This document shows positions 38,586 through 64,000 of a stretch of 64,000 nt of DNA, piece by piece (position 1 is the stretch's first letter; each line of letters opens with the position of its first letter). Under the pieces are notes generated by a model. It ran no database searches. It was not told the origin of the DNA and saw only the letters and a program-made list of their open reading frames with translations. The translations under genes and the position numbers were made by a program. The DNA comes from Chrysophaeum taylorii (Eukaryota; Sar; Pelagophyceae; Pelagomonadales; Pelagomonadaceae). The stretch lies in NCBI GenBank assembly GCA_029834535.1, contig JAQMWT010000317.1, forward strand, positions 310,001 through 374,000. The letters are read 5' to 3'.

Positions 38586-39075
38586 GGAGTGTAACTAACT
38601 AACTTCAGACCTCTCCCAAGCATGGGAGCCAGGCCGGACCGACAGGAGCCAGTCCGAAATCTTTAGGAGTGTAATCAACTACAATATTAACGATCGCTAT
38701 AACCGTTGGTTGCGATGTGTTAGACGGCGCCTAACACGCTTGCTCCCTGCGGCGGCCCCGGCCGTCCCGGAGTGAGACGGTGCCTGCTCGCCTCCCGGGC
38801 TGGCCGGCTAGCATCCGGAAAGTCCGCGCTTGGATGGGGTTCGCTCGGTTGGGCAGAACGCGACGGACAGGTCGATTGTTCGTGGACCAACACGTCCGCG
38901 GCCTGCGACGCTTTTGGACGACCTCGCACAAGACCGCTCGCAGTGGCGGTCCACCATCAACAAGTCCATCCTCGTCCCTCGCCTCTGCCCCAACTGCGTG
39001 ATTTTCCTCTGTGATTCCGTACCGGCTCCTGCCGGTCCGGCCTGGCTCCCATGCTCGGGAGAGGTCTAAAGTTAG
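38586..39075. mobile_element. TIR-flanked non-autonomous DNA element
   Basis: The left end (38592-38656) begins CTAACTTCAGACCTCTCCC, and the right end (39010-39070) is its imperfect inverted copy, ending GGGAGAGGTCTAAAGTTAG. The two arms match in most of about 60 positions, including the core CATGGGAGCCAGGCC and the CGGACCG/CGGTCCG step. The interior from about 38690 is GC-rich, and its 370 bp are about 95 percent identical by eye to a copy at 59688-60066. An 80-residue frame inside (LLASRAGRLASG) is shared by the copies, but I do not claim it is coding. No transposase is seen, so movement would need one elsewhere. Confidence 0.65.
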
Positions 39076-39419
39076 TTCGTTATATCAACGCCGCCGCCGC
39101 CGCCTCCGCCGCCTCTCAGGCAAAACAACAAAACATTAATAGCATAGCACGAGCTTCTTCTTCTTCGTCCGCGCGGAGAAGAAGGGCGACGGCAGAGTGT
39201 GCGTGCCCGCGGGCTGGAGATAAGCTGCTCGCGATAAATACGCCAGTGAATAATAAAAGGAGCACGTCGCGCGCCAGGCTGGCGAACGGAGAAGAAAAGT
39301 GCTGACGCCTGATCATGGACATCAAAGCAAGCGCAGTGGCAAGCGGCGACGAAATTGCCTTCGTCCTCGCAAGGTGCGAGGGGTCCAAGATCGTCTAAGG
39401 GGTCGGTCGTCTCTCGTGC

Positions 39420-40204
39420 TCAGAGCTCGGTCAATCCGCCGTCGACCTTGTACTCGCTCCCCGTGACGTACGCAGCATCGTCGGAGAGCAGAAAACAGGC
39501 AACGGCGGCGACGTCCTCGTTGGTACCGAAGCGACCGAGTGGGACTTGGGATAGGATCTGCTTGGCCATGCCCTCGATGCTAGCTTGATCCATGCCGGTG
39601 CGCGAAAGGAAGGCACTGTCGATGGGTCCGGGGGAAACCGCGTTGACGCGGACCTTTTTTCCGGCATACTCGCGGGCCATCACGCGCACCATCGTCCGGA
39701 GAGCGCCTTTGGTTGCAGCGTAGATGCTTGAACCCGGCATTCCCAACTCGCGAGCGACGGACGTGTTGAGCAGAATGCTTCCGCCCTCGACAATGAAAGG
39801 GCCGAGGGCTTTCGCCTCCAGCAGTGGCCCTCGGACATTCACATGGAATTGCTCATCAAACTCTTCCGCAGTCACTTGCTCGATGGGAATGAAGCGGCCA
39901 AACCCAGCATTCAGGAAACACGCGTCCACCGAGCCAAGCTTCTCCGAGACGGCTTCCGCGAGCGTCGTAGTATCTTCAACCTTTCCGGCGTCATTCTTCA
40001 ACGTGAGGAGCCCGGCTTCCTCGGCGGCCTTGAGGCGTTCGGGGTTTGTTCCCGTGACGAGCACCGTGGCGCCCTCCGCTAGCAGCCGCTTGGCCGTGGC
40101 GAGACCTGATGCGCTGAAATGCAATAAGTACCTCGTCGCTCCAACTTACCAATGCCCGACGAGCCGCCAGTGACCACCGCTTTCTTGCCGTTGAATCTCG
40201 ACAT
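39420..40204 (-). CDS. Short-chain dehydrogenase/reductase, tandem copy 1
   Basis: complement(join(39420..40105, 40106 to 40149 intron, 40150..40204)): two exons with a 44-nt intron (GTAAGT...TCAG), 246 residues. Splicing joins MSRFNGKKAVVTGGSSGIG to LATAKRLLAEGATVLVTG, giving the intact TGxxxGIG cofactor motif. Classical SDR features follow: NAGFG (catalytic Asn region), LLNTSVA (Ser), YAATK (Tyr/Lys pair) and VNAVSPGPIDSAF, ending with YVTGSEYKVDGG. The bacterial-type sequence suggests old transfer followed by intron gain. Substrate unknown. It differs from copy 2 at only about four of 234 exon-2 residues (for example FGRFIP against FGRFFP, and GGLTEL against GGMTEL). Confidence 0.9.
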
Positions 40205-40643
40205 ATTGCCTGCATGCATCGTTCGGCTTGGAGGCCAGAAATGCATTCAGTGCGCTTGTCCGTCTTGCGCCAGCGCGAACAACACAAAAACACCACCAGT
40301 GTGCCACAAGCGTCGACGACGTCGGTTAACAACTGGACACAGCGAACTCACTTGTTCGTGATTTGTTGCCGGTGTGGTCTCGTCGAAGTTTCTCTTCGAA
40401 GTTTAGAATCTTCTTGCCGAGATCACGAGTTTAGGTGCTACTGCAACATTCCACACACGTGTGCAGGATTTCGTTCTCGTTTCCGTGTCAATAGAATCGC
40501 GCAAAGTTCTTGCGAACCAGCGCAGCATGTTCTTGCGCAAACTACCACACGACTCATGAGAGAGTCGGGGGATGTTGTTCGACACAGGCTTGCTGCACCG
40601 CCCAAAGCGTCACGCGAACGGCACACCACCTCCAAATGCCCAA

Positions 40644-41217
40644 GCTCGAACCAGGCCCGCGACTGTCCCCGCGCAAAAGGGGTCAGTCAGGCAGGCAGCT
40701 ACCTAACTAACTCGCTAACTTCAGACCTCTCCCGAGCATGGGAGCCAGGCTGTTAGTCAGTCAGTATGCTCCTGTCGTGTGTCAGTATGCTCCTGTCGTC
40801 GGGCACGTAGGTAAATATTTGTAAGGTTTATTGGAACTACGCTCGAACCAGGCCCGCGACTGTCCCCGCGCATAAGGGGTCAGTCAGGCAGGCAGTTAGC
40901 TAACTAACTCGCCAACTTCAGACCGCTCCCGAGCATGGGAGCCAGGCTGTTAGTCAGTCAGTATGCTCATGTCGTGTGTCAGTATGCTCGTGTCGTCGGG
41001 CACGTAGGTAATATTTGTCAGGTTTATTTCAACTACGCTCGAACCAGGCCCGCGACTGTCCCCGCGCATAAGGGGTCAGTCAGGCAGGCAGTTAACTAAC
41101 TAACTCGCTAACTTCAGACCTCTCCCGAGCATGGGAGCCAGGCTGTTAGTCAGTCAGTATGCTTGTGTCGTCGGGCACGTAGGTAGTATTTGTCAGGTTT
41201 ATTGGAACTACGTACCG
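40644..41217 (+). repeat. 197-bp tandem repeat, three copies
   Basis: Units start GCTCGAACCAGGCCCGCGAC at 40644, 40841 and 41037 (periods 197 and 196 bp). Each contains the block CTTCAGACCTCTCCCGAGCA, which is the TIR end of the element at 38586-39075, and GTCAGTATGCTC/TGTCGT steps. The array lies in the 5' flank of SDR copy 1 and the 3' flank of copy 2. Confidence 0.88.
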
Positions 41218-41325
41218 GAGAAAGATGAACGACGTCATGAACAATGTTGGGTGTTGACGTTAATTGTAGCGCCTGGGCGCGTCGTTGACGTTAATTGTAG
41301 CGCCTCGGCGCGTCGTCTCTCGTGC

Positions 41326-42110
41326 TCAGAGCTCGGTCATTCCGCCGTCGACCTTGTACTCGCTCCCCGTGACGTACGCAGCATCGTCGGAGAGCAGAAA
41401 ACAGGCAACGGCGGCGACGTCCTCGTTGGTGCCGAAGCGACCGAGCGGGACTTGGGATAGGATCTGCTTGGCCATGCCCTCGATGCTAGCTTGATCCATG
41501 CCGGTGCGCGAAAAGAAGGCACTGTCGATGGGTCCGGGGGAAACCGCGTTGACGCGGACCTTTTTTCCGGCAAACTCGCGGGCCATCACGCGCACCATCG
41601 TCCGGAGAGCGCCTTTGGTTGCAGCGTAGATGCTTGAACCCGGCATTCCCAACTCGCGAGCGACGGACGTGTTGAGCAGAATGCTTCCGCCCTCGACAAT
41701 GAAAGGGCCGAGGGCTTTCGCCTCCAGCAGTGGCCCTCGGACATTCACATGGAATTGCTCATCAAACTCTTCCGCAGTCACTTGCTCGATGGGAAAGAAG
41801 CGGCCAAACCCAGCATTCAGGAAACACGCGTCCACCGAGCCAAGCTTCTCCGAGACGGCTTCCGCGAGCGTCGTAGTATCTTCAACCTTTCCGGCGTCAT
41901 TCTTCAACGTGAGGAGCCCGGCTTCCTCGGCGGCCTTGAGGCGTTCGGGGTTTGTTCCCGTGACGAGCACCGTGGCGCCCTCCGCTAGCAGCCGCTTGGC
42001 CGTGGCGAGACCTGATGCGCTGAAATGCAATAAGTACCTCGTCGCTCCAACTTACCAATGCCCGACGAGCCGCCAGTGACCACCGCTTTCTTGCCGTTGA
42101 ATCTCGACAT
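41326..42110 (-). CDS. Short-chain dehydrogenase/reductase, tandem copy 2
   Basis: complement(join(41326..42011, 42056..42110)), 246 residues, with a 44-nt intron at the same position and of nearly the same sequence as in copy 1. Motifs are identical: TGGSSGIG across the junction, NAGFGRF, NTSVAREL, YAATK, SPGPIDSAF. At several of the few sites where it differs from copy 1 it agrees with copy 3 (Phe in AREF and AFF, Met in GGMTEL), as expected from stepwise duplication or gene conversion. It is likely a recent functional duplicate because the frame and splice sites are intact. Confidence 0.9.
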
Positions 42111-42532
42111 ATTGCCTGCATGCATCGTTCGGCTTGAAGAAATGCACTCAGTGCGCTTGTCCGTCTTGCGCCAGCGCGAACAACACAAAAACACCACGAG
42201 TGTGCCACGAGCGTCGACGACGTCGGTTAACAACTGGACACAGCGAACTCACTTGTTCGTGATTTGTTGCCGGTGTGGTCTCGTCGAAGTTTAAAATGTT
42301 CTTGCCTAGATCACGAGTTTGGGTGCTACTGCAACATTCCACACGCACGCGTGCAGGATTTGTTCTCGTTTCCGTGTCAATAGAATCGCGCAAAGTTCTT
42401 GCGAACCAGCGCAGCATGTTCTTGCGCAAACTACCACACGACTCATGAGAGAGTGTGGGGATGTTGTTCGACACAGGCTTGCTGCACCGCCCAAAGCGTC
42501 ACGCGAACGGCGCACCACCTCCAAATGTCCAA

Positions 42533-42732
42533 GCTCGAACCAGGCCCGAGACTGTCCCCACGCAAAATAGGTCAGTCAGGCAGGCCGTAACTAACTAACT
42601 CGCTAACTTCAGACCTCTCCCGAGCATATGGGAGCCAGGCTGTTAGTCAGTCAGTATGCTCGTGTCGTATGTCAGTATGCTCGTGTCGTCGGGCACGTAG
42701 GTAGTATTTGTCGGGTTTATTGGAACTACGTA
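42533..42732 (+). repeat. Single diverged copy of the 197-bp repeat
   Basis: Starts GCTCGAACCAGGCCCGAGAC, runs through the CTTCAGACCTCTCCCGAGCA block, and ends near GGTTTATTGGAACTACGTA, as in the array at 40644-41217. A further degraded match is present at about 43928-44015. Confidence 0.8.
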
Positions 42733-42812
42733 TGGGAGGAAGATGAACGACGTCATGAACAATGTTGGGTGTTGACGTTAATTGTAGCGCTTGGGCGCGT
42801 CGTCTCTCGTGC

Positions 42813-43597
42813 TCAGAGCTCGGTCATTCCGCCGTCGACCTTGTACTCGCTCCCCGTGACGTACGCGGCATCGTCGGAGAGCAGAAAGCAGGCAACGGCA
42901 GCGACTTCCTCGTTGGTGCCGAAGCGACCGAGCGGGACTTGGGATAAGACCTGCTTGGCAAAGCCCTCCATGCTAGCTGGATCCATGCCGGTGCGCGAAA
43001 AGAAGGAACTGTCGATGGGTCCGGGGGCAACCGCGTTGACGCGGACCTTTTTTCCGGAAAACTCGCGGGCCATCACGCGCACCATGGTCCGGAGCGCGCC
43101 TTTGGTTGAAGCGTAAACGCTCGAGCCCGGCAATCCCAAATCACGAGCGACGGACGTGTTCACCAGAATGCTTCCGCCCTCGGCGATGAGAGGGCCCAGG
43201 GCTTTGGCCTCAAGAAGCGGGCCTCGGACATTCACGTTGAATAGCTCATCAAACTCTTCCGCGGTCACTTGCTCGATTGGAACGAAGCGGCCAAAACCAG
43301 CATTCAGGAAACATACGTCCAGCGAGCCAAGCTTCTCGGTGACGGCTTCCGCGAGCGCGGTAGCATCTTCAACCTTTCCGGCGTCATTCTTTAACGTGAG
43401 GAGCCCGGCATCCTCGGCGGCCTTGAGGCGTTCGGGGTTTGTTCCCGTGACGAGCACCGCGGCGCCCTCCGCTAGCAGCCGCTTGGCCGTGGCGAGACCT
43501 GATGCGCTGAAATGCAATAAGTCCCTCGTCGTTCCAACCTACCAATGCCCGACGAGCCGCCAGTGACCACCGCTTTCTTGCCGTTGAATCTCGACAT
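42813..43597 (-). CDS. Short-chain dehydrogenase/reductase, tandem copy 3
   Basis: complement(join(42813..43498, 43543..43597)), 246 residues. The 44-nt intron is in the same place with a changed donor (GTAGGT instead of GTAAGT). The protein keeps all SDR motifs (TGGSSGIG over the junction, NAGFGRF, NTSVARDL, the Tyr/Lys pair in YASTK, PGPIDSSFFSR) but differs from copies 1 and 2 at roughly one residue in ten (for example KLGSLDVCF, NVNVRGPLLEAKALGPLIAE, GLPGSSVYAST). It is the oldest branch of the three-gene cluster. Its 5' flank diverges after about 43740. Confidence 0.9.
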
Positions 43598-44352
43598 ATA
43601 CTACGGTTTGGAGGTGAAGAAATGCACGCAATGCGCTTGTCCGTCTTGCGCCCACGCGAACAACAAACAAACAAACACCACGAATGTGCGACGAGCGTCG
43701 ACAACGTCGGTCAACAAGTTACTGGACGCGGCGAATGCACTTGATTGTGATTTTGTTGCAGTTGATGTGTGTCAGCTTTTCTGGCTCGAGGCTACTGCAA
43801 CATCTCACATACGTAAGCGTCCTTTTGGAAGTGAATTGATTTGAATTGATCGTTTGCTTGCCACACTCTCAACGACTCATGAAAAGACCGTCGCCCGGCC
43901 CAAATCGTCACCACTACCCCCGAAAATTGCAAGCCCCACCAGGCCTGCGATCGATCGTCCCCGCACGAGAGGGGTCGGCCAGAGAACCAGTGTATGCTCG
44001 CGTCGTCCCCGGGGATGAAAAAGTAAAGGAATGTGCGGCGGCGGATGCGACGGGGCTTGTTGTTGTTGTTGTTGGTACTACTTCATATAGAGATATGAGC
44101 GGCCTCTCGTTACATCGCACACTTGGGAACCAGGGGGGCGTGCGTTCGAGAGAGAGGAGGTGCCGTGCGGAGTGTCGAGTAATAAGAGTAGAATACGCGA
44201 GTTGACTGACTGACTGACTGACTGACTGACTGACTGACTGACTGACTGACCGACTGACTGACTGACTGAGTGACCATAATATAACCACATATATCAAGGA
44301 AGGGTCGTGTCGACACGTACTGCTGATAAAAGAAAGAAGACCGCCAGGATTT
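43598..44352. other. Intergenic region with microsatellite
   Basis: About 750 bp: a remnant of the SDR 5' flank, a degraded 197-bp unit (43928-44015) and an (ACTG)n run. No gene seen. Confidence 0.55.
44202..44270 (+). repeat. (GACT)n microsatellite
   Basis: About 16 GACT units with one GACC interruption. Confidence 0.92.
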
Positions 44353-53155: not shown

Positions 53156-54026
53156 AGTACGCGAGTCTAATAATTTTGAGCGTCGAAAGAATCTCCAGAG
53201 AAATCTGCTGCCTCTTACCCTTATCCGTCCGTTGAGAACGTGACCTCTTCCTTACCCTTCTTATTCCTTTCTACACAATCAAAAAGTCCTCTGATTTGTG
53301 CCTACGCTCATCATCATGGTCTAGCGCGTCCCGAGGTATGTAGCACTATACACTTAACCTTTCTCGTGTAGTGCTAGATGCCGCCTGTCGTGTTCTGAGG
53401 ATATAGGGAACATAACCTTTCATTCCCCGAATTAACCTTCCAGACGTTCACGATGAGACGGGATGGTTTCCCAGGTGACTTACCACTGCTTGCTAAATGC
53501 TCTGCAGGTTATGGGCCCAGGCGGGTCCCTGAGAAACCATGTGTCAACATGCACGTAACCTATGGGTATTGGGCTGTTACCGCGCCAGCCCAGCCTCGCC
53601 ATGTGACACGCTTGTCAATATATCGCCATTACCATTGGGCTGTATATAATATCTTTTTGCACACGTGATCGTGTAACCTTGTGTGCACCTGTTCATAGCA
53701 TCGTATTGTCATGTCAATGTTGATGTGTGTGTAATTGGCTAACCTGTACTCTTGCACACATGTTATGGAATATTTTGGGTACGTCCACTCGTACATTCCA
53801 TGGCAATGCTTAACAAGCTCCTTGAGAGCACCAAAACTAACCAGCTGCCTGAGTGACTACGCTTAGCGACACTACTCTGGACTCACAGCTTGCACAGTCG
53901 TCATATAGACACATTTTCCATCGAAAAAATCGATGAGTGTACATAGACACCGATAGACAGACCCCCTTAGAATGTCTAGACAGTGTCAACTGCGTGACTG
54001 AACCCACAGGTTCCCCGTCAACTGCT

Positions 54027-55484
54027 ATGGCAGAACACGCAGCACGAGCCGCACCTAAGGCGATCACAGGTGCGGATATATTGAAGCTCGAAGCTCCTGT
54101 AGTTGAGTTTCTTAATGACGGGAACCGCTTTCAGCTTCAGAACCGCAAGGTATCCTTGCAAATCAAGCATATCAAGCAATTACTACGGTCCAGTCATGCC
54201 GATGCTTTCCTCGAGTACGACTCGTATGAAGCATATACTCGGTCATGCAAGGACTACGAAATCCTCCGGAATCAAATTCTCGATCGCGTTTTCCTGGAAT
54301 GGAAGACCGATAGGGCTGCTGATCTCCGTTTAGCTGTTGATGAATTACCCCCTGAGTATCAGGAATGGCATTTCACCAACGAAGCTTTCCCCCACCTACC
54401 TGATGCAGAAGTAGCTCAGCTAACTACTGTCTGTTACGACTATGAAGTCAAGGCATTACGTCCTGAAATCAATGCTCGTTTCTTAGAAGAGGAACGAATC
54501 TTAAATCGCGCGCACCCGAAGGCACTAGCTTTCGACACTCGTGTTCGTGCCCCGGTTACCATGTTTTCGTTAACTGCAGCTGACTGGCACACTTACCAGA
54601 ACACGTACGCTACATTCTTGCATACTTACTTCAATCTTGAAAGTGTTGGAAAACCGGCACTTGCGGCCTGGCCCGCCATCAATGAGATATACAACAAAAG
54701 CTATTTACCCAACAAGGCTCGAGCTATTATGCTCATCGCCTTTAGTCACTACGAGTCTGTTACGACTACTGATGTGTCTTATTTGAAACAGCAATTTAAC
54801 TCTGTTGTTTATAATCCTAACTGGTATGTCCATGTATTTATCGAAGCTGTCCTAGCATTTAGGCAAATCTCTTACCAACTTAACCAGGAAGAGACTGACC
54901 TTCAATTCGACTTTGGCACTCTTTGCAGAAAAATCTATGAAGAGATACATCGGCATTATGCCGATAATACCAGCAACAACCGTTACGATCGTGGTTGGGT
55001 AGATTGGTGTTATATGTACGAAACCCGATCTTCATCTCGACCTGTACCAGAAGCTGAACGATTGTGTCACCCTACCAACCCTAGCTACATTTTAGAATAC
55101 GCATTAGACCTTTACAATGTCGTATCAAATGGGTCGAACAAAAGACGCTTAGAACGCCCTGTTTCTTGGCAACCCTATGTCGAAGGTTTATCATCTCAAC
55201 CAAAGCCAAAGTTACTACTTACACATACTTTGGACTCATCGGACAAAAGTTCGACTCAAACTGCTAACACACTCGCCTTCATCACTTCGTCCCAACCTGG
55301 TACATCTTCCACGTTTAATGCTAGACGCTTGCGCAACTCTAATGATGCTCGCCAGCCTTTCTCTCGCAGCGATTTATCGTATTATCGTCCCGGTGACTCT
55401 TACGTCACCAAGGAAACTGCCGGACAGTCCCATGACCGTCCAATTTACCCCCGCACTTTGACAGGTCCTCTCGGTCTAACATGA
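54027..55484 (+). CDS. Retroelement gag-like protein
   Basis: 485 residues from the ATG at 54027 (MAEHAARAAPKAITGADIL). The sequence is mostly helical, as in Copia capsid proteins, with FLNDGNRFQLQNRKVSLQ, YLKQQFNSVVYNPNWYVHVF and LCRKIYEEIHRHYADN. There is no CCHC zinc knuckle. The frame is intact for its whole length, unlike the rest of the element. Its stop codon overlaps the ATG of the next frame (ATGA at 55481-55484), an arrangement that allows termination-reinitiation instead of a fused polyprotein. Assignment rests on position and helical character. Confidence 0.65.
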   Translation: MAEHAARAAPKAITGADILKLEAPVVEFLNDGNRFQLQNRKVSLQIKHIKQLLRSSHADAFLEYDSYEAYTRSCKDYEILRNQILDRVFLEWKTDRAADLRLAVDELPPEYQEWHFTNEAFPHLPDAEVAQLTTVCYDYEVKALRPEINARFLEEERILNRAHPKALAFDTRVRAPVTMFSLTAADWHTYQNTYATFLHTYFNLESVGKPALAAWPAINEIYNKSYLPNKARAIMLIAFSHYESVTTTDVSYLKQQFNSVVYNPNWYVHVFIEAVLAFRQISYQLNQEETDLQFDFGTLCRKIYEEIHRHYADNTSNNRYDRGWVDWCYMYETRSSSRPVPEAERLCHPTNPSYILEYALDLYNVVSNGSNKRRLERPVSWQPYVEGLSSQPKPKLLLTHTLDSSDKSSTQTANTLAFITSSQPGTSSTFNARRLRNSNDARQPFSRSDLSYYRPGDSYVTKETAGQSHDRPIYPRTLTGPLGLT

Positions 55485-56800
55485 AATTATTAGATCGAAC
55501 AAACCACACCTTAAACACCCTGCGAGAACAGTGTAGCGAACTCACGAAGCATGTGACAGATAATGATACCACGGCTCAGCTACAACAGAATATCAACAAG
55601 TTATTTGAGACTTTGCTACAATCAGCCGATATCCTGTCAACGACATCTACTGAGGACAACAGTAGTTTACTTCGTCTAAACGAACAGCTCATGTTTGCAG
55701 AAGACATCATTTATGATGTAGACGTTCATCTATCCTCGACCAAAAAGTCGTTAAACTACGTGGAGCCACAACACCATACTGTCGTTACTGCTCCCACCCC
55801 AACAACAACTCCTCCTACTACAAACACACAGGGTAATCCTTCCAATACTGTGTCTAACCTCTTTACCGCTTCCGCCATCTCGGCTTTACCACCAGCATTA
55901 TTGTCCTCGCTATCTTCACAGGTCCAATCTGCCCTCAACCTACCATCACAAGCCGAAACCAAAAGGGATGCCGATCATACCTCACTATCGTCATTTGACG
56001 AAAAGCACGGCATGGCTGATGAGGCTGACGAGCCATCACCACCTGTTCAACCGATCATTATTCCAACGAATCTGTTATTGCTGAAGAACTTCTTTACAGC
56101 CAGCCTCTCCACTACTTGCCCACATTCGGAAAACGCCTTCCTCACCAACTACATGAAGGTAAACAGTGTCCCTCCACATTGCTCTTTTCTATATTTTGAC
56201 TCTTGTGCTACCATCTCATTGATGTCCACCTACGATTTCGCCATACCCAATCATATAATACCATTGGATTCTACGTACGCTCCGATTGTTATTCAGACGG
56301 CAACAGGACAACAACGGGCATCACACATGATGTTAACACGCAACATCGTTATTCCCCTACCAGATCATCCACAAATTGGCTACGTTAAGATCGACTTCGC
56401 TTTATGTCTTCAACCAGTGCATGACCGACATCTCGCTATCCTGAGCATGCTCGAATGGAACCAGACGAATCTTACCACCGTGTTCAACGATCGAGCTGAG
56501 CCAAAGCTCAGCGCTGTCACGAGCCGCATAGACAAAGATGTACGTATACCCATACACTATGTAGCAGCTAATTTACCCGCTCTCCCTTGTATCACTTACA
56601 ACATCGCGCGCGACAAGCGGCTGGAACTTCGCTCCCTTGCATTTCCCCTCAAGCGATACCATGAAAACAGGGAGCTACTGGCATACTACAATTACCTACT
56701 CCAACGAGTTTTACCAGATCGGCCGTGGATTCGCCCTTTGGTTCTCAATCTTCGGAAACAGAACAAATTTGTTCAGCAAAATACGCAGCCATTAAATTGA
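55481..56800 (+). CDS. Retroelement protease-containing ORF
   Basis: 439 residues starting in the ATGA overlap with gag. The N-terminal 100 residues are coiled coil (LNTLREQCSELTKHV; LQQNINKLFETLLQ), then a Thr/Pro-rich linker. The aspartyl protease core is at about 230-310: SFLYFDSCATISLMSTYDF (D-S-C-A in place of D-S/T-G-A) and later MMLTRNIVIPLPDHP and HLAILSMLEW, where retroelement proteases have ...LIG.D/..L. The Gly-to-Cys change next to the catalytic Asp is unusual. It ends with a TGA followed by CTA. The same frame then continues without another stop into the methyltransferase-like domain. Confidence 0.7.
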   Translation: MKLLDRTNHTLNTLREQCSELTKHVTDNDTTAQLQQNINKLFETLLQSADILSTTSTEDNSSLLRLNEQLMFAEDIIYDVDVHLSSTKKSLNYVEPQHHTVVTAPTPTTTPPTTNTQGNPSNTVSNLFTASAISALPPALLSSLSSQVQSALNLPSQAETKRDADHTSLSSFDEKHGMADEADEPSPPVQPIIIPTNLLLLKNFFTASLSTTCPHSENAFLTNYMKVNSVPPHCSFLYFDSCATISLMSTYDFAIPNHIIPLDSTYAPIVIQTATGQQRASHMMLTRNIVIPLPDHPQIGYVKIDFALCLQPVHDRHLAILSMLEWNQTNLTTVFNDRAEPKLSAVTSRIDKDVRIPIHYVAANLPALPCITYNIARDKRLELRSLAFPLKRYHENRELLAYYNYLLQRVLPDRPWIRPLVLNLRKQNKFVQQNTQPLN

Positions 56801-58570
56801 CTACTCTCACGGCCAGTGTTTCTCTCACAAGAGTCCAATCTCCGCAAACCCTCTGTCATGTTACTTTGTTCTGGTTTGTCAACTCCGGCGTTCCTGTCTC
56901 AAGCCACTAATGACTTAGGCTTAAATATCAATGTAAAAGTTGTTGTTGAGTCTGATGATACGCTTGTTCGTATGTTACGCCACCGTTTTCCTACTGTACT
57001 ATTATTTGAATCTCCCCCCGCCTTTATTAACCATCTTCACCTAATCTCACCAGAGGAAAGGCGCACATTCTATTGTGATATAATTGAGATCACTCCTCCC
57101 TGCACAAACAGGAATTTACTAAAACAACAAAAGTCAGAAGACTTACACAGCCTGCTGGACGATTCTCTCTTTTCGACAGCATGCTGTCTGTCATCAAGCT
57201 ACTCCAGCCCTTGGTACTACTGGCTGAGATGACGCCTCCGCATAAGTACTGTCATCAAGACCACATCACAGTGGCCAACCTTATCTATACTACCCTTGAT
57301 TACTGTGTCGATGTTGTTGATAGGTTCCCGACCTACCTATGTGGCGACTACCAATCTAGAGAAAGGTGGATATGCGTCGCACGCAGATATTCTACTGGAC
57401 CAATTAAACTATCATCGTGGCCCATCCTCCATCCACGCCCCTTCCTAAAGATCGTGGATGATCTACAAGCTATTCCCAAGCGCCTTTGGCTACCTAACCA
57501 CATATCCAAAGACTGGATCCGGGTGTTCCCCGATCCTCCATATATATCCGTTCCTAAAAGGTTGGACCTTACTCTCGCACAGGTTCTGCTCAGCTTACTA
57601 TGGCTGACCTTGAATCCCTCAATATGTTACTGCTTCGCCTTCACTCACAACAGGCTCACGAGCAACGTACGCACTCTGTTCAATCCGAGTGTACTTACCA
57701 TCAGTTGTGCTTTAAGCGCTCCTCTATGGAGCCATTACCCAATGCAACACATCCTATACACGTCAAGATTTTTACAATCCTCTATAACGTGTTCGCAAGC
57801 TTACATACTAACTCACCCACTCCTGTGTCCTATTACATAACCATTTTCGAAACTAACCAACCGTCACACAGGTTATTACTTACAACCTCATCAACATCAC
57901 ACAACTCCTACTTCTTAACTGGTGGCCACCATTCCGACGGCAACCTCACCATAGAGAACGCCACCACCAACCAAAAGACCCCCATCAACGCCTTTGGGAG
58001 CACGTATACGTTCACTGCTTCCGACATTCCCCGCGACCGGGACAGGTCCATATATCTGGAGCCGTTTATGGGTTACTTGTGGATAGTCAAGCCCTTCCCC
58101 AAGTTGGCTCCGCTACCACCTATGGCACCGCCATACAAAACCTCGTGTCCAGATGCGCTCTCGTGATGCCTGGCTGCCTTACCTACAAGGCCACCGACAA
58201 CTTTCGATTACAAGGATTCTCTTTTTGCTCTGGAAGATCATCACCTATCTCATAGTCGCTATATAGGGTACCTTCGTGGAAGTGACCGCAAACTCGGCTC
58301 TAAAATCCACTCAATGCTTGCTCCATTGCCAACCGTCCGAGGGTATGCCAATATTATTTTACTCGACCCTCGCAACGGGAAATTACGCTACCCCACTCGA
58401 CCGGAGTTGATTCGTGCTAACAACCACACCAAACAACAGGAATCTTTCCTCTTGTCTCTACGCCATGACCTTTGCTGTGACATGCTCAGCAATGCTCTGC
58501 CTGCCGGTACGTACAGCACTCTGTACAAGCACCTTTCGCTCATCGTCGCCGATATTAAATCCCTTATGTT
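56801..58570 (+). pseudogene. DNA cytosine-5 methyltransferase-like domain of the retroelement (frame-broken)
   Basis: Read in order over three frames. Frame of the protease ORF (56801-57165): motif I VMLLCSGLSTPAFL (56855), an acidic residue in VVVESDDTLVRMLRHRFP (motif II-like), and motif IV with the Cys nucleophile in DIIEITPPCTNRN (Cys codon 57101). Next frame (57166-57600): motif VI QPLVLLAEM (Glu codon 57226) and motif VIII CGDYQSRERWICVARR (QxRxR, 57352). Third frame (57600-58570): motif IX LRYPTRPEL (about 58384) and motif X LSNALPAGTYSTLY (58485). A target-recognition-like region lies between VIII and IX. These enzymes methylate cytosine C5 in DNA using S-adenosylmethionine. The key Cys, Glu and Arg residues are kept. 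Frame breaks at about 57160 and 57600 and a TGA at 58164 suggest recent decay of this copy. Confidence 0.75.
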
Positions 58571-59325
58571 GGACCCTACCTTCCAACATACTGCTGCCGT
58601 GACGAAGAAATCCTATGTATCCGTTTTTATGACCATTAATCAAGCTTCCACCACGTGCAGCACAGATACCTTGTCTTTAGCACAAGCTTTTATGATGTCT
58701 ATTTCCAGCAACTGCTTGACCGAAATGTCGTTAAACTATATATCTTCGTCCTACGAAGATACTCTCGTTACTCGTGATGATGAGGATGCACCTCCAAGTG
58801 ACCCTGCTGCGCACCAGGATGACGATACACCGCCTTCCCTTGCCTTAGACACCGAACTCAAGTTCGATGTTCGGCGCAAACGGCACATTCCTGCTCATCC
58901 AATTCCTCGCAAGTCCCTCGCACACGGACCCACCGAATATCTCAATGCCAAAGAACGTGCCAATCGCTTTCACCGGGTGCATCACTGCCCCGACAACGTC
59001 GCAGCCAAGGCCCCCAACGTATTTGCTCGCCCTGGATTCTCTGCTTCTGACATACCATATCGCGACTTATGCACCGACTGCATCGCACACAACTAGCGCC
59101 ACCCGCACAAGCATTTCAATGCGACCAAGCCTTCTTTTGAGCAAACCCACAAAGCCGGCGAAGTCTGGGCGTGCGACGGCGGCTATGTGACCATCCCATC
59201 CGAATGGGGAGGCTTCACACATATCATCGTCTTCAAGGAACTCATTTCGAAATTTCTCTTGGTGTACTTTACACGCACCACCAACGCCACGGAGTTCACT
59301 CAAGCTCTGGATTTTGTGTATGACT

Positions 59326-59683
59326 TCTGATCGCCGACCGCATGGTTGCGATGGAGGACGGTGCCTCATGAATCCTGAGCCTTGCGAGGGCATCCGCCCT
59401 CCCGGCGTAGGTTGGCACCTATTCGCCTCTCGGGCGGGCCGGTTGGCAGCCGGAACGTTCGCAGTGGGACGGGGTATGGCCGGGGGGCGCAGACGGAAGG
59501 TTATCGACGAGTTGGTTGTCAGTCACATCGCGGTCTCCTCGTCGCATGGCGACAAGCTTGATGATCACTCTCCGCCGACCCACCTTTCGGCGCCCCTCGT
59601 CTACAGGCCCGTGATTCCGGACTGGCTCCTGTCGGTCCGGCCTGGCTCCCATGCTCGGGAGAGGTCTGAAGTTAGTTAGTTAC
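59326..59683 (+). repeat. Inserted repeat copy A in integrase (relative of the 38.6-kb element)
   Basis: Starts near CGCATGGTTGCGATGGAGGA and ends CTCGGGAGAGGTCTGAAGTT. It is homologous to copy B but strongly diverged in the middle (shared LLASRAGRLA-type block). ACTTCTG occurs just before it (about 59323) and just after it (about 59682), as expected of a short target-site duplication. Confidence 0.65.
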
Positions 59684-60072
59684 TTCTGCACCGTTGGTTG
59701 CGATGGAGGACGGCGCCTAACACGCTTGCTCCCTGCGGCGGCCCCGGCCGTCCCGGAGTGAGACGGTGCCTGCTCGCCTCCCGGGCTGGCCGGTTAGCAC
59801 CCGGAAAGTCCGCGCTGGGATGGGGTTCGCTCGGTTGGGCAGAACGCGACGGACAGGTCGATTGTTCGTGGACCAACACGTCCGCGGCCTGCGACGCTTT
59901 TGCACGACCTCGCATAAGACCGCGCGCAGTGGCGGTACACCATCAACAAGTCCGTCCTCGTCCCTCGCCTCTGCCCCAACTGCGTGATTTTCCTCTGTGA
60001 TTCCGTACCGGCTCCTGCCGGTCCGGCCTGGCTCCCATGCTCGGGAGAGGTCTGAAGTTAGTTAATTAGTTC
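59684..60072 (+). repeat. Inserted repeat copy B in integrase (near-identical to 38.69-39.07 kb)
   Basis: Starts CACCGTTGGTTGCGATGGAG and ends GAGAGGTCTGAAGTTAGTTA. About 370 bp match the interior and right end of the element at 38586-39075 with few differences by eye. It lies directly after copy A and is followed by AGTTCTG, a near repeat of ACTTCTG. Confidence 0.75.
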
Positions 60073-60458
60073 TGTCGTACACAACTCAATGTGCACATGC
60101 GCACCCTCTACTCCGATGCATTCAAGACTTACTTTAGCCAGCACATTACCTCCCCGTACCGCGTCGATAAGGGCATTCAACTCATTGCCTCCCGCCGTAC
60201 ATGCACCACTTTAACTTTGAAGTTGAGTCTGCCATCGGTTTCATCGCCTCCGCCTCCTCAACTCGCCTTCGTTCTCTCCTTAATGCTCACTATCGTGGCG
60301 CCAAGATCGTGGAACCCGCTATCATGTTCCCATGGGCGGTGATACACACCGTTCAAAGCTAATACCTTCTCCCGAACGCCACGCTCGAGCGCATTCATCA
60401 TGCTATTCTGAGTCCGCAACAGCTACTCTACAAAAAACTCAACACTCCCCAACACGAT

Positions 60459-61523
60459 ATGCTCAAGATTTTTGGCGCTGAATGTTACCTCCTATTGGAG
60501 CCCCATGAACACCACAAGTGGGAACCGTGCCGCCGCAAATATCTGTATCTCTGTTGCGCCAGCGCACAAAACCCACTCGTCTCCCCACGCGTCGACCATC
60601 TCGCTGACGTCGTCCTCAACCCTGAAAACGGACAAATTCGTGTTTCGTCCAAGCTGCAATTCCTCTACATGTTGCAGCATCCTACTCCTGATCCTGAACT
60701 AGCTCCTCCGCCACACGCTCCTTCCGCGCCTTTCTCGCTCACACCCCACACCACTATGCAAGACCATGTCATTCAGAGGGGGACAAGGACTCCTCATCCT
60801 CAGAGGGGGCACTCCCCACCTCCTTCAGCTCCTTCTTCGTCCCCTACTCCGGCCTCTTCTCCCTCTTCTGACGCTACCGCCGACGAATCTGGCTCTATGT
60901 CACCGCCGCCCTTGCTTCCTTCTTACAAAGACCTTTTTGCACAAGATGACCTCATTCTTGTCCCAGGTTCAAACCCTAACACTCGCAAGGCCACTTCTAT
61001 GAAAACTATCCGAGCCCGGTTACAAGCGTCTACTATTGGTGCTTACAAAGCCGCTGGTGGCAAGCTCGCCGATTTCCGCTGGGATCTTCGCCACCACTTT
61101 CTTACGTTCAAGTCTCCCGCCCTCTCCGCCCTTCATCTCCGTGGTGGTATCCTCTGGTCTGCTATCTGCTCAGAGGGGGAACATGCGTTGTTAGCTCGTC
61201 TTCTTCTCCCGTTGCGCACTGACTTCTACCCGCACGTCGATGGTTACTTCGCCCACGCCAAGTGCGCATCCAGCATCCCAGCTGCAACCTTTTTAACTGC
61301 TGATGGTTCACCTACGTGCCCTATTCCTCAGCCCCTTTTATCTGCGTTCACTGAACACGCTGCTGCCTTCGGCACTTCTTCCTTACAATATGCACTTACG
61401 TACCTGGCGCCGACCAGCTTTATTGATCACAACTCATCCGAGTTTGGCGCTACTTCTGCATCTCTGGCTGACTTGGAGGAATACCTTCTGGTCTCTACAG
61501 AGTCTAACGTCGCTAAACTATAA
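60459..61523 (+). CDS. Retroelement integrase C-terminal/linker ORF
   Basis: 354 residues. It begins MLKIFGAECYLLLEPHEHHK, the Copia 'LR-x-FG-C' segment (integrase C-terminal GKGY-like region), then RRKYLYLCCASAQNPLVSPR, VDHLADVVLNPENGQIRVSS. It continues as a Pro/Ser/Thr-rich linker (60690-60910) and a 200-residue domain I do not recognise (ASTIGAYKAAGGKLADFRWD; LRGGILWSAICSEGEHALLA). It runs in the frame before the RT domain, and a shift near 61515 separates them. The extra domain before RT is longer than in typical Copia elements. Confidence 0.6.
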   Translation: MLKIFGAECYLLLEPHEHHKWEPCRRKYLYLCCASAQNPLVSPRVDHLADVVLNPENGQIRVSSKLQFLYMLQHPTPDPELAPPPHAPSAPFSLTPHTTMQDHVIQRGTRTPHPQRGHSPPPSAPSSSPTPASSPSSDATADESGSMSPPPLLPSYKDLFAQDDLILVPGSNPNTRKATSMKTIRARLQASTIGAYKAAGGKLADFRWDLRHHFLTFKSPALSALHLRGGILWSAICSEGEHALLARLLLPLRTDFYPHVDGYFAHAKCASSIPAATFLTADGSPTCPIPQPLLSAFTEHAAAFGTSSLQYALTYLAPTSFIDHNSSEFGATSASLADLEEYLLVSTESNVAKL

Positions 61524-62781
61524 TTCACCAGCCACTGTTGGTCCTGACGAATATAAGGTCCAAGAAGCGGACGTTCCCATTGACGAATATAAACTTAAGT
61601 GCCTCCACGGTTTGTCGCCTGAAAACAGGCACGCCATCGCCAAGGAACTCAACGACATTATCCGCTTTGGCTGCTTCAAACTTTCCTTACCCGACGGTGT
61701 CTCTCGTCCTATTGACAGCAAGATGGTGCTGAAGATTAAAACAGACTCTGCAGGCAAATACGTTAAGCACAAGGCTCGCCTCGTACTACGTGGCTTCCTA
61801 GCATCTCTTGGCGCCGATTTCTTTGGTACCTTCAGCCCCATGGCCACTATGACCGCAATCCGGGTACTACTAGCTATTGCAGCATACAAGCAATTGCCTG
61901 TTTACCATGCAGACGTCCCAAACGCCTTCGTTCAGTCTGACATCGATGCCAATGTCTATGTTCAATTACCAGACGGCATCAAGCTTATCGACCCCGATGA
62001 CGCTAAGTACAAGGGCCGACGTCTACCGAAACTGCTGAAGTCACTTTATGGACTTAGGCAATCACCATCCCTTTGGAACAAAGAGATAGACAGCTTCTTC
62101 CGTAGCCTTGGTTACAAACGCCTGCATTCGGACTCTTGCCTATATGCTCGAGTATCCGCACATGCTAAGTTCTTCGTAAGCAGTCTGTCTGTAGACGACA
62201 TTGTTATTGTGTCCAATGACGACCCTCTTCGTACTGAATTACAGGATGCCCTCCACAAGCGGTATGCTGTAGAGCAGTTTGAACCTGTCCATACCCTCCT
62301 AGGCAGGCGTGTGTGTCGCACATCTGACGGCTCCATTTCTCTGGATGTGCAAGCCAAGCTGGATGAACTCTTCGCTGATCACCCAGTCTTGCAGCAACTG
62401 ACCCCGCTTAAATATCCTATGTCATCATCCTTCAAGTATAAAGATGGCACTCCTAACACTGAAACAGAGTTGTACATCAATTCGCACTTTGCCACCCTCC
62501 TTGGCAAGCTGGTGTTCATGCAAGTTGCCTGCAGACCCGACTTCTCGCAAGCCTTGGGCAGATGTTCGCGTGGTATGCATGCACCCACATATGTTCACGT
62601 CCAAATGCTAGAGCATTTGCTTCGCTACCTCAAGAAGCCGGAAAACCGCTCACTTCGCCTCTGGTTTCACCCTAAAGGTAATGCCATTGAAGCTCACCTT
62701 CGCACTGTCTCCGCTAATCGAATTGATCTATCCACTGTGGTTGACCACAGGATGTATCTACTGGACAGTTTGACCCCTTAG
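61521..62781 (+). CDS. Reverse transcriptase domain of the Copia-type element
   Basis: The RT_2-type domain is intact within one frame: DEYKLKCLHGLSPENRHAIA, WKxK-equivalent region SKMVLKIKTDSAGKYVKHKA, RLVLRGFLASLGADFFGTFS (Copia 'KARLVAKGF...TFSP'), MTAIRVLLAIAAYKQLPVYH, the catalytic Asp in ADVPNAFVQSDI, LKSLYGLRQSPSLWNKEID (YGLKQ) and SVDDIVIVS (the YVDD box, here Ser-Val-Asp-Asp). It ends with FMQVACRPDFSQALGRCSR and HLLRYLKKPENRSLRL. The open frame extends upstream to about 61303, but that part overlaps the previous frame and is probably not used. Its stop at 62779 is a frame break before RNase H. Confidence 0.88.
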
Positions 62782-62786
62782 TTGCC

Positions 62787-63371
62787 ATGGTTGACGCTGA
62801 CAATGCCCCTTCCTTAGCACAGGAAGATAGGAAATCTACCACCGGGTTTGTCTTCTATCTTTTCAACTGCCTTATTGGTTGGAAAAGCAAACTTCAACCG
62901 ATTGTCTCCTGCTCAACTCACGAAGCTGAGTTGATTGCCCTCAGTATTTGTGCTGATGAAGCTGTTTGGCTACGCAAGCTGCTGTTGGAACTCTCCTTTG
63001 TCGTCAACCCCACCTTCTACGTCAACAATGCTAATGGTGAGAACACCGCTGACCCTGTTGACTTCGATGACAATGACAACCCAATTGCTGAAGATAAGCG
63101 CTTCATCAGAAGCCTACCTCTTTTGTCTGACAATGCTGCCGCTGTTCACACCTCTAATAACCCAGATGAGTCCTCTCGATCCAAGGCACTGTCGACTAGA
63201 TGGTTCAAAATCCGTGAGTATATCTCGCTACAGAAAATACGAGTCCATCACGTTCCCGGCAAGCTGGACGTGGCGGATGGTTTTACAAAGCCACTTGCTG
63301 CTGAGTTCTCCACCTTTCGCTCTCTACTCGGTATGCATCATGCCTCTGACGACATTCCTTTACAGGATTGA
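62787..63371 (+). CDS. RNase H domain of the Copia-type element
   Basis: 194 residues in a frame shifted from RT. Starts MVDADNAPSLAQEDRKSTTG (Copia 'SDADWAG...RSTSGY'), then FVFYLFNCLIGWKSKLQPIV, SCSTHEAELIALSICADEAV with the catalytic Glu, LLSDNAAAVHTSNNPDESSR (catalytic Asp), and ends STRWFKIREYISLQKIRVHH, VPGKLDVADGFTKPLA, the classic C-terminal block with K-x-L. The catalytic set is preserved. The true start lies in RT before the frame break, so the ATG used here is only the first in frame. Confidence 0.85.
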   Translation: MVDADNAPSLAQEDRKSTTGFVFYLFNCLIGWKSKLQPIVSCSTHEAELIALSICADEAVWLRKLLLELSFVVNPTFYVNNANGENTADPVDFDDNDNPIAEDKRFIRSLPLLSDNAAAVHTSNNPDESSRSKALSTRWFKIREYISLQKIRVHHVPGKLDVADGFTKPLAAEFSTFRSLLGMHHASDDIPLQD

Positions 63372-63491
63372 AGATGTCTAACCCTAGTGACCGCAACGTC
63401 GTTAAACTAGCAAACTAGCCCTGGCCCTACCTTCTTTTGCCACATTTTTTTTTGTACGTGTCGTGTGAGTGTCTCTAAATGTCGACTGCTA

Positions 63492-63501
63492 CGAGGGGGG
63501 G
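63492..63501 (+). promoter_or_regulatory. Possible polypurine tract
   Basis: A GAGGGGGGGGG run 120 bp after the RNase H stop, where LTR elements prime plus-strand DNA. The sequence after it does not match anything in 52.8-54 kb, so the 3' LTR was not confirmed. Confidence 0.25.
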
Positions 63502-63546
63502 GGTGTGTGTGGGGAGCATGAAGGATGTGGGTGGGTTGTGTCACTC

Positions 63547-64000
63547 ATGTCTTTTTCTTGGCACTCCCGTGGCCATGGCCGTGGCATCTCTCCAGTCGTT
63601 CGAAGGACAATTCCACTCTCGCTCTCCACGGCCGAGCCTTCTCCCAAGTTGGTTCACAAGCGACAACCCATAACCACTGTCACTCCTACTACCTCCCAGG
63701 CTGCTACTGTCTCACCGACACCAGCTGAGCCTGTTTTACTACAATCCCTAACACTCCAGGATGGCCTCAACATGGATTTTACCCTGATTGAACGAGGATT
63801 CTCTCTTTTTGAGAGCTTCCGTACTCCTGCTACGCCCTTTCTCTCTTCTGTTATGCGAGCGGAAATCTCTACGGCACTCAACTCGATATATGAATCTGCT
63901 GACTCTTTACTGTTTGTGGAACTTACGACCTTCATATCTATGCGCCTACCCATTACTACATTTTGGGAAGCTGCTCCTGCTATTACTTCTATTGGCTGCT
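63547..64000 (+). CDS. Partial unknown ORF, retroelement-like, open at window edge
   Basis: From the ATG at 63547 the frame is open without a stop for 151 codons to the last base, so the gene continues to the right. It starts MSFSWHSRGHGRGISPVVRR, with a basic Arg/Gly start, then a Pro/Thr/Ser-rich stretch (TVTPTTSQAATVSPTPAEP) and a helical region (LNMDFTLIERGFSLFESFRT; LSSVMRAEISTALNSIYESA). The AT-richer codon use matches the retroelement, not the host genes. It is not similar to the gag at 54027. It may be the gag of a second element or an extra ORF of the same one. Confidence 0.45.
   Translation, partial: MSFSWHSRGHGRGISPVVRRTIPLSLSTAEPSPKLVHKRQPITTVTPTTSQAATVSPTPAEPVLLQSLTLQDGLNMDFTLIERGFSLFESFRTPATPFLSSVMRAEISTALNSIYESADSLLFVELTTFISMRLPITTFWEAAPAITSIGC

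Follow-up and report, generated by a model that had tools for sequence, protein, structure and literature searches.

Few retroelements are known to carry the enzyme that is usually used to silence them, and those cases come from dinoflagellates and charophytes. Here we describe Copia-type retrotransposons of the pelagophyte alga Chrysophaeum taylorii whose Pol polyprotein appears to include a C5-cytosine methyltransferase (MTase) between the protease and the integrase. The stretch analysed, hereafter the window, comprises 64,000 bases (C317:310001-374000) of a 70.8 Mb assembly in 697 contigs, and we read part of its forward strand as a decayed copy of one of these elements. A sequence-only reading of the window had proposed a Copia-type element with such an arrangement in a probable stramenopile alga. 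Host and element type were both borne out: Chrysophaeum taylorii belongs to the stramenopile class Pelagophyceae, Pfam places a Copia-type reverse transcriptase (RVT_2, E 1.4e-41) in the window open reading frame (ORF) 61297-62781, and relatives of the element have a weak integrase (rve) match upstream of RVT_2, which is the Copia order. The placement of an MTase between protease and integrase is virtually certain for a sister family, which we call family B, whereas for the family of the window itself, family A, it is supported by a mixed C5-MTase profile (E 5.6e-5) and less strongly once family B is left out of that profile (E 0.047).

The window copy was used as it stands, with its frame breaks unmended, and was compared with L035 (contig C42), an uninterrupted relative. 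L035 is open for 1691 amino acids, from just past the protease part through RVT_2 (E 1.8e-42), with rve (E 0.001, under the Pfam cut-off) ahead of the reverse transcriptase.

The predicted methyltransferase of family B

The family B domain is almost certainly a C5-MTase. All four loci scanned (L010, L011, L012 and L014) score 29.9-34 bits against PF00145, over its curated cut-off of 22 bits. In L011, one frame of 1952 amino acids contains PF00145 (32.1 bits), RVT_2 (E 1.6e-38) and a weak match to rve (E 0.0061, under the Pfam cut-off), and L012 has PF00145 and RVT_2 together in one of 1868 amino acids; the frames scanned from L010 and L014 gave PF00145 with a weak rve and PF00145 alone, respectively. 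Other collections point the same way, with matches to phrog_363 (E 7.9e-9), to the PADLOC Type II MTase model (E 5.6e-9) and to TIGR00675 (dcm; E 2.5e-8), the last of these at 33.9 bits and thus short of the model's own cut-off of 100.65. When the PDB was searched with a family B profile, the one chain listed was a cytosine methyltransferase (E 0.052); the same search with a single family B sequence returned no MTase, which counts against the assignment. Three of 19 family B loci (L010, L020 and L023) contain direct repeats about 105-118 bases long and separated by 8.3-8.9 kb.

Among the collections searched, the best match to family B outside the alga is the phage protein vir335_00075 (BK063680.1; tblastn E 1e-6, 25% identity). 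This affinity bears on whether the domain might act on RNA, either that of the element or its primer tRNA, in the manner of DNMT2 and rather than on complementary DNA (cDNA), an alternative that we consider unlikely. In its favour, B and A can both be aligned with DNMT2-type proteins, which have the same core; RNA methylation was raised for the SymbioLINE elements of Symbiodinium by the authors of a 2018 paper (PMC5890265); and the weak CG footprint described below would fit a domain that leaves no lasting mark on DNA. Against this, the best family models for B are those of DNA methylases, and its best pairwise scores are with phage DNA methyltransferases (28.2 bits, versus 10.3 bits for DNMT2), although the phage set had been chosen for matching B. 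With the same limit, three phage enzymes score above 120 DNMT2-type proteins in comparisons with B, while family A scores too low to tell. We favour DNA as the substrate.

Selection and catalytic residues

Selection was estimated in 16 of the 19 family B loci fetched at 10 kb, with L024, L025 and L028 omitted as having the MTase split over several ORFs, a condition that also affects some of the copies kept. Median ratios of nonsynonymous to synonymous substitution (dN/dS; NG86, pairs with dS of 0.02-2, region limits set by the analyst) were 0.161 for the MTase (120 pairs), 0.164 for the reverse transcriptase (66 pairs), 0.127 for the integrase (120 pairs) and 0.162 for the protease (118 pairs), while the region that follows the MTase gave 0.234 (120 pairs). 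By this measure, the family B MTase is under purifying selection. The catalytic cysteine (PC), the glutamate (EN) and the motif VIII arginine are kept in all 16 copies used, 15 of which can also be aligned over a motif IX-like segment. Two points temper this picture: the family B copies were picked by PF00145 score, which favours intact domains, and the dN/dS of 0.22-0.33 for family A comes from only three usable copies, with pairs that involve L031 and L032 at 0.47-0.57, out-of-frame stretches included.

The same evidence bears on whether the domain has lost catalysis and serves Pol in a structural or nucleic-acid-binding capacity instead, which we judge improbable to a similar degree as action on RNA. 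In favour of such a loss, family B has a degenerate motif I, the Pfam matches of the retroelements mostly start at profile positions 20-60, and C-terminal motifs are hard to see. In family A, motif VI reads EMT in place of ENV, a departure that also weighs on the assignment of this family; EMT is present in three of the five copies read, those in which the segment aligns in frame (L031 is out of frame and L032 has a gap). What speaks for an active enzyme is the retention of the cysteine, glutamate and arginine across the family B set, a dN/dS equal to that of the reverse transcriptase, and the presence of PPC in all five family A copies. SRER is found in four of these five, L031 being unaligned at that point. 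A working MTase is still the reading we prefer.

The corresponding domain of family A

We consider the family A domain very probably a C5-MTase as well. In the window, a motif I-like LLCSGL, a motif II-like VVESDD and motif IV (TPPC) are followed by motif VI (AEM, with the glutamate at about 57226), motif VIII (QSRERW, about 57352-57369) and a motif IX-like SAQLTMADLE, an ordered series that lines up with that of known enzymes; in an alignment, motifs I, II, IV, VI and VIII of both families coincide with those of phage, DNMT2 and DNMT5 proteins. The ordered motifs claimed in the sequence-only reading were recovered for I, IV, VI and VIII, while IX and X of the window are by-eye calls. The extent given there, 1.75 kb, was too large: the MTase region covers about 1.0 kb, from 56801 to about 57800, and from there to 58570 Pfam gives no match.

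Support comes from a profile built on 12 DNMT2, one DNMT5, three phage and two family B sequences and run over 1892 sequences, which comprised the ORFs of the loci and of the window, pieces of L035 and 500 shuffles. Residues 1-340 of L035 score 18.9 bits, compared with 3.2 bits for the best shuffle and 5.6 bits for the best unrelated ORF. The window pieces match adjoining, colinear parts of the profile, with 56801-57229 at profile positions 12-86 (10.7 bits, E 0.017) and the ORF 57088-57837 at positions 85-198 (7.6 bits, E 0.14; this match starts in an out-of-frame stretch), and both outrank the best unrelated ORF and all 500 shuffles. Without family B, the profile gives 8.0 bits for L035 and 6.4 and 4.3 bits for the window pieces, with a best shuffle of 3.4; when DNMT5 is left out as well, L035 scores 7.2 bits against 4.0 for the best shuffle. 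In addition, the sole PHROG listed for family A at E 1 is phrog_116, annotated as a DNA methyltransferase (E 0.026, residues 42-205), and this match covers the same profile stretch that family B matches. A tblastn search of phages with family A gave one chance match (E 5).

Several results weigh against the assignment. PF00145, whose absence from every frame-corrected translation the sequence-only reading had named as a refutation, matches neither the window pieces nor the uninterrupted L035. Taken literally, this outcome goes against family A, whose assignment rests on family B and on wider profiles. Nor was any NCBIfam, PADLOC or relevant PDB match found for this family, and a profile of DNMT2 proteins alone scores it at 3.7 bits, barely above the best shuffle (3.0). 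Profile-to-profile comparison with hhalign returned low probabilities (0.9% for A with B, 8% for A with DNMT2 and 40% for B with DNMT2). The A-B score of 23.3 was reached by none of 200 column shuffles, yet reversed A scores 22.6, nearly as high, so this comparison alone proves little; one of 200 column shuffles reached the A-DNMT2 score, and none the B-DNMT2 score. The notion that the family A segment is no MTase and that its motif set is a chance likeness draws on these shortfalls, but it is very unlikely given the score of the mixed profile above every shuffle and unrelated ORF, the PHROG match and the position in the polyprotein shared with the family B MTase.

Along with the close relatives of the window copy, we observed a diverged relative of family A at L027:64-1380 (minus strand of the locus), which lies on contig C3 near a family B element and is 38% identical over 243 residues, which indicates that further A-like subfamilies exist.

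Copies and host enzymes in the genome

A scan of the genome with PF00145, in which 123 of 474 candidates were scored, located at least 57 places, all 55 of those outside two host genes over the cut-off. The two best places are the host proteins: a DNMT2-like protein encoded by an ORF of 360 amino acids (L001, contig C634), and a DNMT5-like protein with PF00145 followed by SNF2 in one open frame of 2086 amino acids (L009, contig C621). Of the 55 further places, 20 were checked (19 loci at 10 kb and L008 at 3.4 kb), and all 20 have family B ORFs. Family A is represented by at least 150 matches with 81-100% identity to the first MTase piece of the window (150 of 932 candidates scored), none of which overlaps the 57 PF00145 places. 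Of the 150 family A matches listed, at least 51 are followed on the same strand, at a distance of 3-7 kb (median 4.5 kb), by an RVT_2 match that is also listed, and none has a listed one upstream; the count of 51 is a lower bound because the RVT_2 matches listed are 150 of 1670 candidates. In 12 of the 150 listed matches, the open frame across the MTase piece is 344 or 345 amino acids long, approximately the length of the MTase alone.

The order protease, MTase, region without Pfam match, integrase and reverse transcriptase is found in two diverged families. Their MTases can barely be aligned with each other, and their common place in Pol may reflect either an old capture that later split or two separate captures. 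An unrelated domain in this position, which would have spoken against the sequence-only reading, was seen in none of the five family A copies read and in none of the family B copies, all of which were found through the MTase domain itself. When the two polyproteins were used as queries against protein collections and one region was scored, no hit reached E 1e-3 in sets of 7704 and 8000 candidates. This result says little about other algae, as annotations may omit repeats (our guess) and the length limits of the search exclude shorter ORFs from transcripts. Scans of IMG/VR found no relative.

The presence of a DNMT5-like host protein allows a further possibility, namely that the marks serve the host, with retroelement MTases helping to silence or mark this class of element at no gain to the element, and diatom DNMT5a mutants do overexpress mostly Copia-like elements (PMC9998398); however, the MTase lies inside Pol in many copies (at least 150 family A matches and all 20 family B places checked) and in family B is under selection as strong as that on the reverse transcriptase. 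Both point to a function in the life cycle of the element itself, and we give service to the host little probability.

Possible expression signals in the Pol region

In family A, the protease-side frame and the MTase frame join in a single frame across an in-frame TGA followed by CTAC (TGA-CTA-C, window 56798-56806). This junction is common to all five copies read (the window copy, which is also L029, together with L030, L031, L032 and L035), of which L030 and L035 have an extra stop farther upstream of the TGA and L032 has a frame break there. UGA CUA is the consensus for high readthrough in human (PMC4359377), and programmed readthrough of UGA between protease and MTase is possible in family A. 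If it occurs, the shared UGA-CUA suggests that the part of Pol with MTase, integrase and reverse transcriptase would be made at a lower dose. On the other side, no hairpin beyond chance was found in the 100 bases after the window TGA (z 0.14), and the family A copies are related, so the shared TGA could instead descend from one dead source copy.

Family B has a different arrangement, in which pol lies in the -1 frame relative to gag and gag ends right after a conserved CTTTTTC (L011:3687-3739 and counterparts). This arrangement is kept in 24 of 25 rows, four places being counted twice, with L017 as the exception, and the CTTTTTC at the overlap of gag and pol is a possible frameshift site.

Search for a methylation footprint, and a proposed role

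We looked for traces of CG methylation in the elements themselves. In family B, C-to-T changes per C were 0.060 in CG, 0.052 in CHH and 0.065 in CT; in family A (five copies) they were 0.044 in CG versus 0.026 in CHH, a 1.7-fold difference. The CpG ratio is 0.93-1.07 in the elements, compared with 1.21-1.45 across the window's first 50 kb, and a lower ratio is also found in the RVT_2 loci L033 and L034, which may or may not carry an MTase. The CG-deamination footprint is weak or absent, which argues against a strong, lasting CG mark and, to that extent, against the methylating role considered here.

With these reservations, we propose, at about even confidence, that the MTase is produced within the Pol polyprotein, is released by the element's own protease and stays with the reverse transcriptase and the integrase in the particle. 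It could then methylate cytosines, either in double-stranded cDNA that has just been made or in newly inserted DNA, and every new copy would thereby arrive already marked. The authors of the 2018 study inferred methylation of cDNA for the DIRS elements, and an MTase within Pol would be well placed for it (PMC5890265). A plausible gain is that the element would resemble host DNA to the cell, and a DNMT5-type enzyme of the host could maintain the mark when the DNA is replicated. In family A, readthrough of the UGA-CUA stop would keep the MTase-integrase-reverse transcriptase part at its lower dose. An element of this kind could be the author of marks on its DNA and not just the target of those set by its host.

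A more far-reaching version of this proposal, which we regard as speculative and rather improbable, is that Copia retroelements supply the de novo C5-MTases of C. taylorii, placing 5-methylcytosine on the cDNA that they make and possibly at other sites too, with the host DNMT5-type enzyme copying the marks and UGA readthrough setting the dose in family A. It builds on the PF00145 scan, in which the two best places are the DNMT2-like and DNMT5-like host proteins and the 20 checked of the other 55 are retroelement copies. Were it true, parasites would be the writers of the alga's epigenome; if the host really has no other de novo enzyme, C. taylorii would be a case in which the host methylome is set by parasites. 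As a sequenced alga that grows in the laboratory, C. taylorii is an organism in which self-methylation by retroelements can be tested; its genome paper gives a deposited PacBio run (SRR22085545), a type of data in which 5-methylcytosine yields a weak signal.

Layout of the window copy

Within the window, the retroelement copy can be followed on the + strand from 53415 to 64000, with about 95-97% DNA identity to L035, in pieces, as far as the compared stretches reach; its true ends lie at or beyond these positions. No long terminal repeats (LTRs) were found inside the window or L035 stretches, which stop short of the ends of the element. Frame breaks occur near 55450, 57170, 57560, 58090-58200 and 61505.

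All features that follow are on the + strand. A gag-like ORF (53937-55484) shares 96.5% identity with the ORF that comes first in L035 and has no Pfam family. The ORF after it (55436-56797) is assigned as protease-bearing by eye, from an FDSCAT segment that resembles the active site of aspartic proteases; no Pfam protease family was found in it at E 10. The in-frame TGA (56798-56800) separates this ORF from the first MTase piece (56801-57178), which has motifs I, II and IV with the cysteine codon at 57101-57103 and is 91% identical to residues 1-126 of L035. The second piece (57166-57558), with motifs VI and VIII and the start of the target-recognition region, is 94% identical to L035 residues 122-252. 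The probable C-terminal end of the MTase (57564-57804), where motif IX-like and X-like stretches were seen by eye, is colinear with L035 residues 255-335 and is paired with family B by a low-probability profile alignment.

The region 3' of the MTase (57805-58163) has no Pfam family at E 10, either in the window or in L035. An AlphaFold model of 57558-58163 from the single sequence was uninformative (mean predicted local distance difference test score, pLDDT, of 37) and was left unused. A 2-oxoglutarate dioxygenase had been considered for this region from HxD-like patterns seen by eye and was dropped, as Pfam gave nothing.

A linker and the first part of the integrase (58167-59327) are colinear with L035, where the counterpart has the sub-threshold rve match given above. 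The integrase part is interrupted by an inserted repeat (59611-60074) with direct terminal repeats of 78 bases, identified by self-comparison of the window and with a relative at 38591-39082. The inner part of this repeat of about 464 bases has a 96.5% identical relative at 38702-39077, flanked by inverted end pieces. The remainder of the integrase and an SH3-like part of pol (60046-61502) are again colinear with L035, and the ORF 60363-61523 has a match to SH3_retrovirus (E 4.6e-5, under the Pfam cut-off). The RVT_2 reverse transcriptase occupies 61684-62352 (C317:371684-372352) and is followed by an RNase H-like end of pol (62745-63371), recognised by eye and without a Pfam family. Elsewhere in the window, self-comparison revealed long repeats in direct order at 39400-43760, about 1-1.4 kb long and 89-96% identical.

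Comparison with known systems

Retroelement-borne MTases in dinoflagellates and charophytes, which the sequence-only reading had mentioned, are documented in the 2018 paper by de Mendoza (PMC5890265), where they occur in LINE and DIRS elements of Symbiodinium and in a Gypsy element of Klebsormidium; the Copia elements of Symbiodinium are described there as without any DNMT domain. The suggestion that a stramenopile would be a new host lineage holds as far as we searched, the published cases being dinoflagellate and charophyte. No stramenopile Copia element with a C5-MTase was named among the open-licence papers that our searches listed, as judged by titles and the openings of abstracts, and the main text of the C. 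taylorii genome paper (PMC10366177) contains none of 'transpos', 'retro' or 'repeat'. As far as searched, a pelagophyte Copia element with a C5-MTase is new in both host lineage and element superfamily.

Outside retroelements, the C5-MTase core is shared by the host proteins L001 and L009, neither of which is among the twelve best pairwise scores of family B. The phage protein vir335_00075, annotated as phrog_116, is a free-standing enzyme of a prokaryotic virus, unlike the family B domain, which is part of Pol. A transposon-borne DNA methyltransferase in a stramenopile has been described in Sola1-1_Ec32 of Ectocarpus (PMC12477816), but this is a DNA transposon that encodes ParB and a predicted N4-cytosine or N6-adenine methylase, not a C5 enzyme.

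A 2025 paper by Sarre (PMC12344493) refers to retrotransposon DNMT3s in 'LTR Copia and DIRS', wording that places DNMT3 in Copia elements. The sentence cites the 2018 paper and concerns streptophytes and dinoflagellates; the LTR element is called Gypsy in that earlier work, and no stramenopile is named in the sentence.

The closest parallels are those of the 2018 paper itself. Like the elements described here, SymbioDIRS-Dnmt3 and SymbioLINE-Dnmt represent hundreds of retroelement-borne C5-MTases in an alga, although their carriers are DIRS and LINE elements, unlike the Copia elements of Chrysophaeum; de novo CG methylation by the SymbioDIRS enzymes was demonstrated in yeast. KnitGypsy-Dnmt3 of Klebsormidium nitens likewise has a C5-MTase inside the Pol ORF of an LTR element, in intronless copies under purifying selection. 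It differs in being a Gypsy element of a charophyte, while the Chrysophaeum element is a Copia element of a pelagophyte, with RVT_2 and an integrase upstream of the reverse transcriptase, and its MTase is related to Dnmt3, while those of Chrysophaeum were compared with DNMT2, DNMT5 and phage enzymes.

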